A stretch of 32,933 nt of DNA. Origin: Lysobacterales bacterium (GTDB taxonomy: Bacteria > Pseudomonadota > Gammaproteobacteria > Xanthomonadales > Rhodanobacteraceae). Every line of letters starts with the position of its first letter. Position 1 is the stretch's first letter. The position numbers and the translations under genes were made by a program. Below, one piece after another: positions 21,093 through 28,044 of the stretch. Location of the stretch: NCBI GenBank assembly GCA_017302215.1, contig JAFLDX010000011.1:1-32933 (forward strand), in the 5' to 3' direction. The notes beneath the pieces are model-generated. The model was not told the origin of the DNA and made no database searches. It worked only from the letters and a program-made list of their open reading frames with translations.

Positions 21093-21168
21093 GGCCGGGT
21101 AGCTCAGTTGGTAGAGCAGGGGATTGAAAATCCCCGTGTCGGCGGTTCGATTCCGTCCCCGGCCACCA
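21093..21168 (+). tRNA. tRNA-Phe (GAA anticodon)
   Basis: A 76-base tRNA with a seven-pair acceptor stem (GGCCGGG/CCCGGCC), D-loop AGCTCAGTTGGTAGAGC, anticodon stem-loop GGGATTGAAAATCCC (anticodon GAA), T-loop GGTTCGATTCC and encoded CCA end. Its 3' end borders the accessory island and is a usual target for tyrosine integrases. Confidence 0.98.
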
Positions 21169-21270: not shown

Positions 21271-22269
21271 TCACTGCTCACTACGACGCCGAATTGCCTC
21301 CAACAAGTCCCACCCGCAAAGGTGTTTGGCCGTAGTTCTGTCCAGCCTCGGATGCTCAACATAGTCGAGCACCTCGTGAAGCTCTACGAAGCTATCCGCG
21401 TGCTCGATCATGTGCGGAAAGACCGCAAGGCAATCATTGCCTGGGTTCTTAGTTGATTTGTATAGGATGCCCTCGAAGCCGGCGGCGATAAGCATGCGCG
21501 CGAATATCTGGCTTGGCGCCGGCGAGTCGAACTGCGCTGCCCATGCTGTCCAGTTTTCGCCGAGCGCCTCGAGGAGCCGCTCCGGCGTCCTGATCATGAA
21601 GTCGTCCCGGTTCAGTCCTAGCGCTTTCGCGAGTTCTCGAACCGCCTTTGGCTGCTTGATGTCGGCTATTGCCCTGCTGAAAGGGATGAACGCATCGACC
21701 GTCCGCGCATCAAACACGTGATGGAGCCGGCCTCGCATTGTTAGATAGTTGAAGGACTGATGGTCACTGAGGGACATTTCCTCGGGCGTCAACCCTGATC
21801 CCACGCCGAGACCCCCGGCTTCCAGCTGCCACTTCTCGCGATAAGCGGTGTGGTAGTTCTCACCCAGGTAGAGGGCGGGAAACGGGTCAACCGTAGAGAT
21901 GTCCACGCCCGTGTTGTATCGGCCGCCCCACACCGTCAGGCTTCCAGCCGCTGACAACGGGGTCGAGCCATACTTTGCGGATACGACACGCGACCAATTG
22001 TTGAATTCGAATTGGATGCCACCCGTGGCGCGGAGGGACGCAACGATAGCATTGCGGCGTTGCTGTCGTTGGTCTTCAAGATCGACCCACAGCAGTTGGT
22101 GCAATTCGTCCAGCTGACCGGCTCGGCGGAGCCACAGCGTCAGGTCAGCATGCGTAAACCGTTCGAGCTCTAAAACGCTGGGCTTGGTAACACCCTGGGG
22201 CGCTGGAGGAATCTCGAATTGTTGTGCAGGTACAGGGAGCGGTCGGTAGCGGGGCCTTCTCCTTTTCAC
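21271..22269 (-). CDS. RES-domain toxin (NAD+-degrading family) with N-terminal extension
   Basis: A 332-residue protein. The RES domain starts near residue 94 (Arg94 in WSRVVSAKYGSTPLS) and contains GGRYNTG (Arg117), LYLGENYHTAYREKW (Glu145) and the late serine motif GILYKSTKNPGNDCLAVFP (Ser272). These are the R, E and S that name the family. Characterised RES toxins (MbcT, ParT) degrade or modify NAD+ or ADP-ribosylate a target. Here about 90 extra N-terminal residues, partly helical, precede the domain, making it nearly twice usual length. It overlaps the antitoxin-like gene upstream by four bases. The family call is good; the activity is inferred. Confidence 0.78.
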   Translation of the reverse strand: MKRRRPRYRPLPVPAQQFEIPPAPQGVTKPSVLELERFTHADLTLWLRRAGQLDELHQLLWVDLEDQRQQRRNAIVASLRATGGIQFEFNNWSRVVSAKYGSTPLSAAGSLTVWGGRYNTGVDISTVDPFPALYLGENYHTAYREKWQLEAGGLGVGSGLTPEEMSLSDHQSFNYLTMRGRLHHVFDARTVDAFIPFSRAIADIKQPKAVRELAKALGLNRDDFMIRTPERLLEALGENWTAWAAQFDSPAPSQIFARMLIAAGFEGILYKSTKNPGNDCLAVFPHMIEHADSFVELHEVLDYVEHPRLDRTTAKHLCGWDLLEAIRRRSEQ

Positions 22270-22841
22270 CCGCTAGCTATCGAAGCAGCCTTTCCGCTTG
22301 CCCGCCTTGGCACGTTTTCACTCATGGAGGAAACGATGAACAAGCGAAGTCGATCTGCCTTCCCCATGCGAATCATGTCGCGTGGAGAAATATCTCCCAA
22401 GCGCGGGTTCCGCGTCTTAAACCATTGCGCAGCGCGCACGATGTCACCGCCGAAAAAGTTGGCGACATCCGTCATGGTTTGCGCAATTTCTTCGAATCGC
22501 TGCAGCACAAGCGGCGGAAGATCGTCGATCTGCTCGAGGTCGATCTTAGGCACTTCGGCGATACGAGACACGTCGCGCTTGGGGAGGTCGAGGTATTTCT
22601 CGAGCAACTGCGGAACGAGCTCCGGATGAAACGAATCACCAGAGTGAAATCCCCAAGGATCGCAACGCTCTTCAATTTGGCCGGTGGCGAAGTTCATGGC
22701 TGAAAGGTCGTGTCCACGTATGGGGATCTCAAGCTGCGCAGGACATGGTTTCACCAAGGCCATGAATCGTTTCACAATTTTGCGCCGCCTGACAGTGCTT
22801 GAGCACACATGCTGGGGCTGGGCGGTGACTTGAGAAGGCAC
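22266..22841 (-). CDS. MbcA/ParS-type antitoxin (DUF2384-like)
   Basis: Up to 191 residues. The C-terminal part (about 115-180) resembles the toxin-binding domain of MbcA/ParS/Xre antitoxins: NFFGGDIVRAAQWFKTRNPR, then LGDISPRDMIRMGKADRL, with the conserved Trp and Leu-Gly..P. The N-terminal half shows no recognisable helix-turn-helix, which RES-partner antitoxins usually have. The start is uncertain: GTG 22841 would be almost leaderless with respect to the predicted promoter, and ATG 22763 is an alternative giving 165 residues. It overlaps the RES gene (ATGA), the order antitoxin-toxin being normal for this system. Confidence 0.68.
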   Translation of the reverse strand: MPSQVTAQPQHVCSSTVRRRKIVKRFMALVKPCPAQLEIPIRGHDLSAMNFATGQIEERCDPWGFHSGDSFHPELVPQLLEKYLDLPKRDVSRIAEVPKIDLEQIDDLPPLVLQRFEEIAQTMTDVANFFGGDIVRAAQWFKTRNPRLGDISPRDMIRMGKADRLRLFIVSSMSENVPRRASGKAASIASG

Positions 22842-23013: not shown

Positions 23014-23205
23014 TCAGGGCGTCACCAGACCGCCGCGGCGCGGTGCCTCTGCCCGAACCCGCAGATTCGCCTCGCGAAGCTCCTGGCGCGTCGCAGACAG
23101 CTCACCGACCAGGGCATCGTCATCTTCGGCGCGCTGTCGGAGCTGATCGAGAACATCGCGGTCGGCGCCTATCAGGAAGTGCAGTCGCGCTCGTGGGCGT
23201 TTGGC
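23014..23205 (-). pseudogene. C-terminal fragment of a coiled-coil, phage-type protein
   Basis: The minus strand is open for 63 codons with a convincing coiled-coil pattern (VLDQLRQRAEDDDALVGEL, then SATRQELREANLRVRAE) and ends LVTP-stop. There is no ATG, GTG or TTG at a sensible place; an in-frame TGA at 23206-23208 closes the 5' end. It therefore looks like the tail of a gene cut at a junction near 23.2 kb, where the oppositely oriented tape-measure fragment begins. The parent family is not recognised. Confidence 0.4.
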
Positions 23206-23438
23206 TCAGCGAGGCGCTGCTCGGCCTGACCAGGGGCATCGAAGGCTTCATCGAGGGCATGTCGAGCTTCGTGTCGAACTTCGCCACGGAGCAGCACAAG
23301 TTCACGGTAGCGCAGGAGGCGCTGACCTCGGCATTCGATCAGGCCGGCCTGAAGATCCCGCCGTCGCGCGACGCCATGTTCGCCCTGATGCAGTCGCTCG
23401 ATGCGACGACCGAATCGGGCCGTGAGCAGATCGCCACC
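23193..23438 (+). pseudogene. Phage tail tape-measure protein remnant
   Basis: About 82 codons on the plus strand read VGVWLSEALLGLTRGIEGF, SSFVSNFATEQHKFTVAQEA, LTSAFDQAGLKIPPSRDAMF and ALMQSLDATTESGREQIAT. The pattern (FxxLGLxxPxTRDxFxALxxSLDxTTxxG) matches an internal region of long phage tape-measure proteins. It has neither start nor proper end: upstream is foreign sequence in another frame, and downstream the resemblance stops abruptly. A broken piece of a lost prophage. The 23439-23647 stretch after it holds no gene I can support. Confidence 0.6.
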
Positions 23439-23647
23439 CGCACCATCCGCTGTCGGGAATCGATGGAGTACTCGGGTCATCTCGGGCGTCCGTTCGGGCT
23501 GTCGGTCGTCTCACGACGATCGGGGCCTAGTATGCCTGGACGCGGGTGGGCGTGGTTCCCGCGTGGGCCTGACAGGCCGAGGAGGCGGGACAAAATGCAG
23601 AGTGTGGCCGCTGGTACGATCGGCCAACAACTTGCCGGGAGAGGGCA

Positions 23648-24448
23648 ATGAGCAGCAGGTCGAACAAGGAATTGAGAGACGCCGATCCGCTCGGCTATTT
23701 GGCCGCGCAAATGGTGGTCGCGGCGTTCACTGTCGCAGTCGCGGCGGCGGTCGCATTCATTCTTTTTTTCTGGAACCGCCCTTTGGGAGGACCGGATGAC
23801 TGGGGAACCTTCGGCGACTACTTCGGCGGAGTGGTTGGCGCGCTGGTCGCGGTCGCAACTGCGGGGCTCGTCTTCCTCACCCTCCAAGCGACTAAGCGCG
23901 AAGCGGAAAGTACGCGCAAGAAGATGGAAGACCAGCTCGACCTGCTCAGGAAGCAGCAGGAGCTGACAGATCTCCATCGAAAGCTCGAAGGCGCATTCGA
24001 AGCATGGAAACTCTTGACCAGGGTTACATCGGTTAACGGGCAAATTGGCGAGAACGAGGATCGCTCGGCCTTCAGCGTGGGCTCGACGAAGTTGGCGAAG
24101 ATATTCCGTAACGCGAACTTCCGAGTGGTCGCAAACTTTTGGCGAGCAAGTCTCGGCCCTCTTGACGTTCCGGATGGTCTCACCGCTTCCGTAAGCGACG
24201 CCCGGGCGCTGCTGATTGAGTTCGAGAGCTACATGCGTGCGTATGACCAGCTTTCCCGGAGTCGTGTGCTTGGCGACTTCTATCGCCTCCGAGTCGCTAA
24301 CGCAGCAAGCGTGATGTACGCCTGGCGGATGCTCCCCAGAGACGTTGCTGTGCGCATCGAAAGTGCAAAATTTCGACTGGACGACCCCGCCGCGCTGGGG
24401 GAATTCGACGAACCGCTGGAGAGGGTTCGATCGAGTGTCGCAACGTAG
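23648..24448 (+). CDS. Two-TM protein resembling putative AbiC-type phage abortive-infection proteins
   Basis: A 266-residue protein with two membrane helices (about 18-42 and 60-80) flanking WGTFGDYFGGVVGAL, then a coiled coil (about 82-118, rich in K, E, Q) and a cytosolic helical domain. The W-G-x-F-G-D-x-x-G-G pattern followed by a helix and charged coil is characteristic of the putative phage-abortive-infection (putAbiC) family. GGGAGAGG lies just before ATG 23648. It precedes a second two-TM gene by 51 bp. More A/T than the chromosomal genes. The defence role is inferred from family and context. Confidence 0.65.
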   Translation: MSSRSNKELRDADPLGYLAAQMVVAAFTVAVAAAVAFILFFWNRPLGGPDDWGTFGDYFGGVVGALVAVATAGLVFLTLQATKREAESTRKKMEDQLDLLRKQQELTDLHRKLEGAFEAWKLLTRVTSVNGQIGENEDRSAFSVGSTKLAKIFRNANFRVVANFWRASLGPLDVPDGLTASVSDARALLIEFESYMRAYDQLSRSRVLGDFYRLRVANAASVMYAWRMLPRDVAVRIESAKFRLDDPAALGEFDEPLERVRSSVAT

Positions 24449-24499
24449 TTCTCGATTACGCCCATTCGCAGGCAGCATCGCGTCGCATCGGAGGAAACC

Positions 24500-25279
24500 A
24501 TGTCCAAGTCGATCACTTGGTGTTGGCGTTGCTCGATTGCAGTGGCTGCGATCGTGGCCGTCCCATTCGTTTTCGACGGACTCATCCGATCCCTCGAGTT
24601 CGATCTCAAGACGATCGAATGGGAGTCGATGAGTGCGCTTGGCAGCTTTGCTGCCGCCGGTGTTGCGCTGTGGCTCGGGTTGAGATCCATTCGCGCTGAG
24701 GAGCGCGCGGCTCAAATACTTCGTGCCGAGCGATTGGAAACGGCGTCGATCTACGCTGGCATCTTGGACCACGAACTCGGCGTGGTTTACGGAATGCTCC
24801 AGTGGTCGTTCAAGCACCTGAATTCTTACGGGCCCAACTCCGATCAGGTGATCGCGCGCATCGAGTTCGAACGATACGTCAAGAAGACGAGTCTTCCGAT
24901 GCTTGAGCGCTTTGCGGAGAAGCTTGAGGTTTTTCCAATTAGTGCGGCGCGATCTCTGGGAGTTCTTCTTTCCGGAATCGGCACAATCCGCCGAAGCGAG
25001 GTACCGCAACGCGAGATCTTCGAAGCGATGCCCCAAGAAATTCGCGAGCTCTACTTCAAGAACGCGAATCGAGAGTGTGCCACCGCAATCATGAGCGTCT
25101 TCTTTGCGGCCGCTGCGATTCGCCGAGAGCTTCCTCGAGGACACCGGAGTGGGGTCATCCTTGAGCGCGTGCCGGAAGCAGTTCTCCAAGTCTGGCTGAG
25201 CACAATTCCTGCGCACGATCGCGAACGGATGCTCGCGGGTTTCAGAAAGGCGGATGTTGCGTATCGACAGTCCTCGTGA
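24500..25279 (+). CDS. Two-TM helical protein of unknown function, partner of the AbiC-like gene
   Basis: A 259-residue protein with membrane helices at about 8-27 and 44-62, a charged coiled segment (RSIRAEERAAQILRAERLE) and a long helical cytosolic part. I do not recognise a family. Its layout (two helices, short coil, helical domain) mirrors that of the preceding gene, suggesting the two proteins work together at the membrane. GGAGG before ATG 24500 is a strong ribosome-binding site. Codon use and A/T content differ from the chromosome. The 25280-25398 gap downstream holds nothing convincing. Confidence 0.62.
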   Translation: MSKSITWCWRCSIAVAAIVAVPFVFDGLIRSLEFDLKTIEWESMSALGSFAAAGVALWLGLRSIRAEERAAQILRAERLETASIYAGILDHELGVVYGMLQWSFKHLNSYGPNSDQVIARIEFERYVKKTSLPMLERFAEKLEVFPISAARSLGVLLSGIGTIRRSEVPQREIFEAMPQEIRELYFKNANRECATAIMSVFFAAAAIRRELPRGHRSGVILERVPEAVLQVWLSTIPAHDRERMLAGFRKADVAYRQSS

Positions 25280-25398: not shown

Positions 25399-25719
25399 TC
25401 ACGGTGAAAGAACCTCGACTAGCGCGTCGCCGTGGATCGCTCGCAGGTCGGCGATGATCTCGTTGCGCGGCTTGGTGCCGATCGCGGCGCACCACGAGCC
25501 CGGGTGACCGCCGGCCAGGCGGAAACGGACCACGGTGCGGGTGACGACCCCGGCGTCGGGCAACGCGGACAGGAGCGCCGGCTTCGCCTCTCGTACGCGA
25601 GCGAGCAGGTCGGCGGGAGGCGGCACCGGCGCGCGCATCGTCAGGCGGTCGCCGCGGCGCTGGATCATCACGCGATGGCGCTCGAGGTCCGCGAGCAGGG
25701 AGTCGACGGCCGCGTTCAT
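25399..25719 (-). CDS. TubC_N-like docking-domain protein
   Basis: A 106-residue protein. The first 55 residues (VDSLLADLERHRVMIQRRGD, then PADLLARVREAKPALLSALP) match the small TubC N-terminal docking-type domain often found in phage and plasmid proteins next to primases and replication ATPases. The rest, including a FRLAGGHPGSWCAAIG stretch, is not recognised. ATG 25719 overlaps the ATPase stop as ATGA and has GGGAGG upstream; an ATG five codons earlier lies before this site. Most likely an accessory protein of the element's replication module. Confidence 0.65.
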   Translation of the reverse strand: MNAAVDSLLADLERHRVMIQRRGDRLTMRAPVPPPADLLARVREAKPALLSALPDAGVVTRTVVRFRLAGGHPGSWCAAIGTKPRNEIIADLRAIHGDALVEVLSP

Positions 25720-26894
25720 GCCTCGCCCTCCCAATTGGCTCCGCCGGTTTCCGCCGGTTCTCCGCCGGTTCTCGGATTGGCGGGAACCTGCGGACTGGCC
25801 GGCTCCGCCGCCGCCAGTTCATAGGGGGGTATGGGGGGATTGGCGCGCGGAAGAATTGGCGGCTGTTCGACGACCACGAGACGGGTCCGAACCTTGCTGT
25901 CGGCGTTCCGGTACTCCTCGGAACTGGCGAAACCCTCGCGCTGCAACCGGGCCAGCGCGCGCCAGAATCGATCCTTCCCGGCCTGCCCCCGGAGGTGCCC
26001 GGGCAGCGCCTCGGTCGTTTCCAGGACGCGGTGCGCGGTCGCCGGCCCGGTGCGCGCGGTCGGAACCTTCACTCCCTGCCAGATCGCCTCGCGCAGCGCC
26101 TCGAGGACGCCGTCGGCGTCAGCATCGGCGACGGCCTCCACCGGCGCGCCCGGGCCCGACGCCGGCATCAGGACGCCTTGCGTCGACCAGCGCAGCGCGA
26201 TCGGTTCGGCCGCGCGACCGACGTTCAGCTTCTCCTGCCGCATCTCGATCCGGCCGTCGGTCTCGATGAGAGCGAGGCGGCTGCGCGACGAGTTGTGCCA
26301 GGCGGTGCTGCCCGCGTAGCTGTTGCCGGCCGCGCCGTTGCGCGCGGCGCTCTTGTCGATGTGCGCGAGCAGGAGCACGCCGGCGTCGTTCTCGCGCGCC
26401 AGGCCGGCCAGCAACCGCACGAAGGCGCGGACCATGCGTCGGTCGTTCTCGTTGACGTCGGCGGCGTCGCTCGCGTTGTCGACGACGATCAGCCGAGCCC
26501 CGCGCGCTGCGTCGCGCAGTTCCTCGAAGCGCGTGGTCGCCATCATCCGGCGCACGCCCTGGGCGCTGTACTCGGCACCGAGCGACGATTCGCCGGCCGT
26601 GCCGTCGAGGATCCGCAGGTTCTTGGTGACGTCGTCAGCCTGCAGTCGGTATTCGGTGACGATCTTGCGCAGCCGGTAGAGCATCAGTTCCGCCGGGTCT
26701 TCCAGCGACACGAACGCCGCCGGTCCGCCGGCCACGTCGAACCCTGCCCACGGCGAACCGGCGGCGACGTGCGCGGCGATGGTCAAGGCGAGCAGGCTCT
26801 TGCCGCTGCCGCCGTGCGCGCCGAGCAGGGTCACGGTGCCGGACGGGACGAGTGTGTCGACGACGAACCGCGGGGGCGCGAGCTCCGCTCCCAT
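25716..26894 (-). CDS. RepA-like AAA/RecA-fold replication ATPase
   Basis: About 392 residues. LVPSGTVTLLGAHGGSGKSL is a clear Walker A motif (about residues 25-33), RLIVVDNASDAADVNENDRR fits the Walker B region, and VLLLAHIDKSAARNG follows, as in RepA-type hexameric helicases of plasmids and phages. The C-terminus is proline-rich with Q/P/A/N repeats before the stop. Starts: ATG 26894, or GTG 26915 in frame. Neither has a good ribosome-binding site, and the opposite strand becomes coding right there. Homologues often have a longer N-terminus, so this end may be truncated. Overlaps the TubC_N-like gene. Confidence 0.75.
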   Translation of the reverse strand: MGAELAPPRFVVDTLVPSGTVTLLGAHGGSGKSLLALTIAAHVAAGSPWAGFDVAGGPAAFVSLEDPAELMLYRLRKIVTEYRLQADDVTKNLRILDGTAGESSLGAEYSAQGVRRMMATTRFEELRDAARGARLIVVDNASDAADVNENDRRMVRAFVRLLAGLARENDAGVLLLAHIDKSAARNGAAGNSYAGSTAWHNSSRSRLALIETDGRIEMRQEKLNVGRAAEPIALRWSTQGVLMPASGPGAPVEAVADADADGVLEALREAIWQGVKVPTARTGPATAHRVLETTEALPGHLRGQAGKDRFWRALARLQREGFASSEEYRNADSKVRTRLVVVEQPPILPRANPPIPPYELAAAEPASPQVPANPRTGGEPAETGGANWEGEA

Positions 26895-26953
26895 GAATCC
26901 GCGCAGGTCGGCCACGGTGGCTGCGCAAGCGCGTCGCCGACCTGGATGCGGAG

Positions 26954-27250
26954 GTGGCGCGCCTGCAGGCGGAGATTGCGATTGAGCGCGAGTATGCCGA
27001 CCGGCGCGCCGGCGCGGCCGAGTTTCGCGCGATCGATGAAGCGGCTGCCGGCGTCGCGCGCTTGATGGGTGCGCTCGCCGACCGCCTCGAGGACGCGGCC
27101 GAAGCGAAGCGGGCTGGCGATTGGGAGCGATTCGCGGATGAACTGGTGGCCGTGGAGTACTACGGGCAAGACCTGGCCGAGTACCGGGAAGCGTGCGGCG
27201 CCGATGATGCGGCCGGCTCGGGCGAGGCGCGCGAAGTGCCCAGCCCATAG
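26954..27250 (+). CDS. Coiled-coil hypothetical protein
   Basis: A 98-residue charged, helical protein (VARLQAEIAIEREYADRRAG, then ALADRLEDAAEAKRAGDWER and ELVAVEYYGQDLAEYREACG). The same frame is open back to about 26900 (RWLRKRVADLDAEVARL), so the true N-terminus may lie upstream and be missing; GTG 26954 is the only start available. It runs opposite to the RepA-like gene with practically no gap between them, which is unlike a natural divergent pair. No family recognised. Probable phage or plasmid accessory protein, possibly 5'-truncated. Confidence 0.5.
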   Translation: MARLQAEIAIEREYADRRAGAAEFRAIDEAAAGVARLMGALADRLEDAAEAKRAGDWERFADELVAVEYYGQDLAEYREACGADDAAGSGEAREVPSP

Positions 27251-27426: not shown

Positions 27427-27676
27427 TTGTCCCGGGTCCGGGCCGACCCGGGACAAACCCGGGACACGAAAACCCCTTGTTTTCTGCTGTTGTCCCGGGT
27501 GTCCCGGTTGTCCCGGGTAGATACATAGGTTCGCGTGCAAGCCCCCTGCCGACACCCTCTGTCTACGGCCCGCATTCCTTCACCCTGCCCGTTTTCGCCC
27601 GGGACAACCGGGACACCCTTTCAATTCAGAGGCTTGGCCGTCCCGGTTTTGTCCCGGGCCGGCCTGGACCCGGGAC
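27427..27676. repeat. Array of GTCCCGGG motifs in inverted pairs
   Basis: At least ten copies of GTCCCGG(G) or its complement lie within 250 bp. Plus-oriented: 27429-27436, 27492-27499, 27501-27507, 27510-27517, 27640-27646, 27651-27658. Minus-oriented: 27447-27454, 27458-27465, 27598-27605, 27608-27614, 27669-27676. They join into a double unit, CCCGGGACAACCGGGACAC (27598-27616), recurring as minus (27447-27467), plus (27499-27517), minus (27598-27616) and plus (27640-27658), giving two inverted pairs with half-sites about 50 and 42 bp apart. No gene is supported here. Iterons, a segregation site or regulatory operators are possible. Confidence 0.75.
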
Positions 27677-28044
27677 AGAGGTTGTGCGGCAAGGTGCGTG
27701 AAAGTCCGCGCGCGGCTGGCGCCTTCGCGCCCGGCTGTCGCCCGCGCGCGGACGCACGGCGTGCGCGTCGTCCGGCCGGAGTCGCGCTTACTCGCCCTGG
27801 CGTGCCGCCGCATCTGGCGCAACAGCGTGCCGGCGTCGGAAGCGAGCGGGAAAGTGAGTAGGATTGTGAGTACGATGCACGCGGCGCTCAGGGAATTGCA
27901 TTATCGATCCGCATGTTACGCGGCGTTTTAGGTAGAGTCCCCGACCATCTTCCTGCACATGCTCGTATCGCGCGGCGAAATCGCGCGCGCCGTCCGTCCG
28001 CGCGCGTCACGCGGCTCGGTGCCGCCTGCCGCATGGCGATCCGA
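27677..28044. other. Non-coding stretch near the island's right edge
   Basis: No credible gene. Frames are open by GC bias only and lack ribosome-binding sites. It contains a short palindrome CCGCATGTTACGCGG (27909-27923) and, at 27937-27951, GTCCCCGACCATCTT. The latter resembles the tRNA-Phe 3' end (GTCCCCGGCCACCATCTT) with three bases missing and could be a degenerate right attachment site. Confidence 0.3.

Follow-up and report, generated by a model that had tools for sequence, protein, structure and literature searches.

A candidate single-gene anti-phage membrane protein of a variant Abi-like class and an orphan neighbour beside tRNA-Phe

Two adjacent genes in the window, the stretch of 32,933 nucleotides of a Lysobacterales bacterium analysed here, encode helical membrane proteins, and the question raised by this locus is whether both act together against phages or whether only one of them is a defence gene. 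The first gene, P1 (23648-24448, + strand), codes for 266 residues comprising a two-TM, Abi-like N-terminal module and a variant C-terminal domain. The second one, P2 (24500-25279, + strand), codes for a helical membrane protein of 259 residues, which is an ORFan. An interpretation made from the letters alone (the sequence-only reading) had proposed a two-component membrane system consisting of one sensor and one effector.

The gene pair and its insertion beside tRNA-Phe

Both ORFs are present as claimed: they are 51 bp apart (24449-24499) with no gene in between, and each is preceded by a strong, purine-rich ribosome-binding site, which is GGGAGAGGGCAATG for P1 and GGAGGAAACCATG for P2. When all six frames were scored for codon use, the annotated frame ranked highest for P1 as well as for P2, and the position-specific GC content of both genes is coding-like. 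Their GC content is similar (0.57-0.59) and no terminator-like site separates them; co-transcription in this genome is plausible. An ORF directly 3' of P2 (25280-25507) was rejected as a gene, as its frame score was no better than that of the other frames.

The pair is part of a low-GC insertion, whose left edge is a tRNA-Phe gene (21093-21168, + strand; detected by ARAGORN and Rfam). From there to about 25.4 kb, the GC content is mostly 0.56-0.61 versus about 0.70 outside; only a tape-measure remnant interrupts the stretch at 0.64-0.67. Besides P1, P2, and this remnant (23160-23540, + strand; phrog_24709, E-values of 3.9e-18 to 1.2e-17 for about 75 of 1069 positions), the insertion contains a RES-domain toxin (21271-22269, - strand; PF08808, E 2.8e-14) and an antitoxin of the Xre/MbcA/ParS type (22266-22841, - strand; PF09722, E 5.4e-5, just below the curated cut-off; NF049845, E 1.1e-4). 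The antitoxin carries a long N-terminal extension. A high-GC, phage-type AAA_25 ATPase gene comes after the low-GC stretch. Thus, the toxin-antitoxin pair and the broken phage genes, which had been reported beside P1 and P2, were all found. No att repeat delimiting the insertion was recognised between 20900 and 29000. The AAA_25 gene codes for a replication ATPase and forms, together with a small gene of 111 aa, what is apparently a separate mobile remnant (25399-27248). Beside the replication gene (27427-27677), there are nested inverted repeats made of units of the TTGTCCCGGG type, with arms of 38 nt (92%) and 21 nt (100%); this may be an origin-like iteron region.

In sister species, the tRNA-Phe flank was located via the adjoining DUF6491 gene. 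The flank harbours a type I R-M system in G237 (hsdM, hsdS, and hsdR with E-values of 1.5e-221, 7.9e-116, and 0), a PDC-S68 candidate (E 0) and, on the far side of an HD gene, a UvrD helicase in G236, and an Mrr-like nuclease plus a nucleotidyltransferase in G235; it is empty in G231. These defence genes support the assignment of the P1/P2 locus as defence-type. The 3' flank of tRNA-Phe beside DUF6491 is variable in the genus, as seen in the window (21093-21168) and in four further loci (L057, L060, L061, L062).

The hairpin module of P1 and its variant C-terminal domain

According to hydropathy, P1 has two hydrophobic segments at residues 22-41 and 59-80, approximately. The first is TM1 (23711-23770), which falls within an AF2 helix spanning residues 14-41. 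The WGTFGDYFGG motif and TM2 (residues 52-80, 23801-23887) constitute the conserved hairpin core, as deduced from alignment and profile-profile comparison; in an alignment of six sequences, the residues W52, F55, G56, D57, G60, and G61 of the turn are invariant. The AlphaFold model of P1 is all-helical (pLDDT 63); TM2 and the coil are predicted as one continuous helix, followed by the C-terminal helices. A fold search of this model against PDB and BFVD gave no match at E<=0.001.

An hhalign comparison between the P1 and putAbiC classes resulted in a probability of 98.7% and an E-value of 3.9e-16 for 65 columns around the WGxFGDYFGG turn. On the basis of sequence, the N-terminal module of P1, i.e. 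hairpin plus coil, is the module of putAbiC/AbiP-like proteins, and for this module the AbiC-like pattern named in the sequence-only reading proved to be correct. The same part of P1 (residues 21-104) is matched by phrog_8999 (E 1.7e-13), a phage family of unknown function, whose likeness is confined to the N-terminal module and which also matches the P1 homologues in G236, G312, and G315. A profile built from P1 and its homologues in G236 and G312 led to many further proteins, which were reached through the N-terminal module alone; PF16872 is present in proteins reached in this way (L052, E 1.1e-21; L029, E 9.8e-12; L009, E 5.4e-6), and the PADLOC AbiP/AbiC models match L052. A confident match to a PADLOC defence model is absent for P1, and for P2 there is none at all. 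The best PADLOC matches of P1, ZorB (E 0.0017) and RTasTM (E 0.033), are weak and cover coil or TM stretches; a relation to these proteins was rejected.

The closest known systems, putAbiC (PF16872) and the lactococcal AbiP/AbiC-like proteins (PADLOC PDLC02351/PDLC02343), have in common with P1 the two-TM hairpin, the WGxFGD-x-GG turn, the long coil, and a cytosolic helical domain. The C-terminal domain of putAbiC contains a RAQLSxxEL...FYN block, whereas P1 possesses a class-specific helical domain (residues 126-245, approximately; 24023-24382) with a DFYRxR block. A profile of residues 100-266 recovered only P1 and members from G236, G312, and G471. The C-terminal profile of PF16872 (80 positions, 22-bit cut-off) did not match P1 at E-values up to 5, a genome search of G000 with PF16872 gave no match, and a local profile of the putAbiC C-terminal domain did not match P1 either; no Pfam family scored above its cut-off for P1. 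The description of P1 as putAbiC-like is therefore valid for the N-terminal module, but not for the C-terminal domain, as profile searches found no putAbiC domain there.

Full-length homologues of P1 occur in G236, which belongs to the same genus (33%), and in G312, which belongs to another family of the order (28%). In a set of 49 proteins bearing the module, a putAbiC-like C-terminal domain was found in 20 cases and the P1-type domain in four (P1, G236, G312, and, more weakly, G471); about 25 proteins have neither. As the same hairpin is combined with putAbiC-like, P1-type, or other C-terminal domains, it is a module joined to different cytosolic domains. By its sequence, P1 is a member of a small variant class, whose C-terminal domain recurs in three further genomes, clearly in two of them and more weakly in one.

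P1-like genes have a scattered distribution, stand alone, and are often located on prophage-type contigs; in L009, such a gene begins 18 bp after an ORF of 343 aa, whose sequence motif was taken to indicate an integrase. In G236, about 1.1 kb separate the P1 homologue from a gene whose product of 1263 aa matches PD-Lambda-4_A along about 970 aa (E 8.7e-29; sister-species locus L019, 3101-6892). Such PADLOC matches of neighbours are a loose indicator and not a proof of defence, because 4 of 10 ordinary core genes, used as a control, also match PADLOC at E<1e-3. In one further genome (L054, 5049-9384), about 3 kb separate two distinct two-TM genes whose products have a related WxxFGxxVGG turn; one of these genes adjoins a protein of 1355 aa with an N-terminal match to a control-protein/Xre-like HTH.

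We assign a probability of about 0.5 to the reading that P1, as a member of the variant class, is an abortive-infection-type protein that is anchored in the inner membrane and acts against phages as a single gene. Among the alternatives, the one that survives best regards P1 as a membrane protein of a prophage or mobile element, which serves in superinfection exclusion, is holin-like, or acts as an anchor without causing abortive defence, so that the Abi label is annotation only. This is consistent with the occurrence of the module in many viral contigs, where it carries the varied C-terminal domains counted above, and with the Pfam name of PF16872, which itself reads "putative"; superinfection exclusion, moreover, would likewise be anti-phage. 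However, many bacterial copies are found outside recognisable prophages, and defence genes are enriched at the tRNA-Phe site of sister species. We regard this alternative as somewhat unlikely.

P2 and its relation to P1

P2 has a hydrophobic segment at about residues 10-30 and a weaker one at about 43-61, which is barely above the hydropathy cut-off; its AlphaFold model is all-helical and of low confidence (pLDDT 47). The "same plan" ascribed to the two proteins applies to their topology, i.e. a pair of hydrophobic helices at the N-terminus and a helical part in the cytosol, but not to their sequences, which have nothing in common: an origin of P1 and P2 as duplicated paralogues was rejected, given a BLASTP E-value of 0.76, an hhalign probability of 0.1%, and no similarity in HMM comparison. 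As had been stated for the second gene, P2 matches no known family; searches of Pfam, PADLOC, PHROGs, and NCBIfam gave nothing beyond noise. No relatives were found in phages and plasmids, and a pattern scan of viral contigs and 84,980 genome species, which detects only close relatives, found none. Likewise, there is no credible relative in 233 genomes of the bacterium's own family or in wider samples. Residues 61-204 match ORFs of 535-783 aa across the family weakly (E-values of 3.5e-5 to 9.5e-4) around a HisKA-like motif, and residues 50-123 match an ORF of 591 aa outside the family, again weakly. The idea that P2 is a degenerate histidine kinase was rejected: neither HisKA nor HATPase was matched at E-values up to 5, the low-scoring matches extend across a region rich in coil, and the protein is much too short.

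In order to assess the association of the two genes, the neighbourhoods of P1-like genes were inspected for 20 loci and for 30 viral-contig cases, about 50 in all; the latter include a few near-duplicates, and one contig is common to both sets. In none of these cases was a P2-like gene found near the P1-like gene, anywhere in the stretch examined, and none of the P1-like genes has beside it a downstream protein of 180-330 aa with two N-terminal TM helices. Both kinds of partner are also missing in G236 and G312, which contain the closest homologues of P1. The sequence-only reading had itself named a lack of conserved adjacency as speaking against its proposal, and no such adjacency was found in other genomes or viral contigs. 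As 0 of about 50 cases show it, P1 and P2 do not qualify as a two-gene defence module, and the two-component reading is unlikely.

In that reading, P1 and P2 would be a true sensor-effector system in the membrane, too rare for a second copy to be found. The common strand, the gap of only 51 bp, the lack of a terminator-like site, the good ribosome-binding sites, the similar GC content, and the matching topology all argue for it. They are opposed by the partnerless P1-like genes and by the lack of P2 relatives in the family; furthermore, the topology common to both proteins is generic. We therefore consider a sensor-effector system quite improbable. Even less credit is given to a very rare two-protein membrane defence system that combines an Abi-type hairpin protein with a partner of unknown ancestry in a tRNA-Phe defence hotspot. 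Accessory islands of this type often bear pairs resembling a toxin and its inhibitor, and P2 is an adjoining, likely co-transcribed membrane protein, but that it counteracts or controls P1 in the manner of an antitoxin, as an inhibitor silencing a toxic membrane protein, is highly improbable, since P1 homologues exist without such a partner and toxin-antitoxin partners are normally co-conserved. All versions taken together, a functional pair of P1 and P2 is unlikely. On our best reading, P2 is an orphan gene for a membrane protein with no relation to P1, ORFan cargo of the same accessory insertion at tRNA-Phe, which may be co-transcribed with P1 and is not its conserved partner.

A possible mode of action of P1 and its implications

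Two characterised proteins illustrate how a single-gene defence protein of the P1 type might work. PdpSau of S. aureus prophages is a membrane-anchored, AbiP-like protein, which aborts infection and alters the membrane potential (PMC10127798). It resembles P1, according to its description (PMC10127798), in combining a membrane anchor with a cytosolic domain; unlike P1, it has one TM helix and an OB-like cytosolic domain. The type III CRISPR effector Csx23 possesses two N-terminal TM helices and a cytosolic sensor domain and perturbs the membrane (PMC11014256). The arrangement of two N-terminal TM helices and a cytosolic domain is also that of P1; this is a comparison of working principle and not of sequence. 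In contrast to Csx23, neither a CRISPR locus nor a nucleotide cyclase was recognised among the genes adjoining P1.

If P1 is such a defence protein, its two helices and the WGxFGDYFGG turn would anchor an oligomer. By analogy with AbiP and PdpSau, the C-terminal domain may recognise something produced in infection. The long helix, modelled at moderate confidence, would pass the signal from this cytosolic domain to the membrane, where the hairpin, again by analogy with AbiP and PdpSau, might perturb the membrane or stall phage replication.

Should P1 be protective, the widespread two-TM WGxFGD hairpin would be a reusable membrane effector module with interchangeable cytosolic sensor domains, and the putAbiC domain would be just one of several sensor domains attached to it. 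This would call for a wider search for uncharacterised single-gene abortive-infection proteins. For the genus, the flank of tRNA-Phe is a place to seek defence genes.
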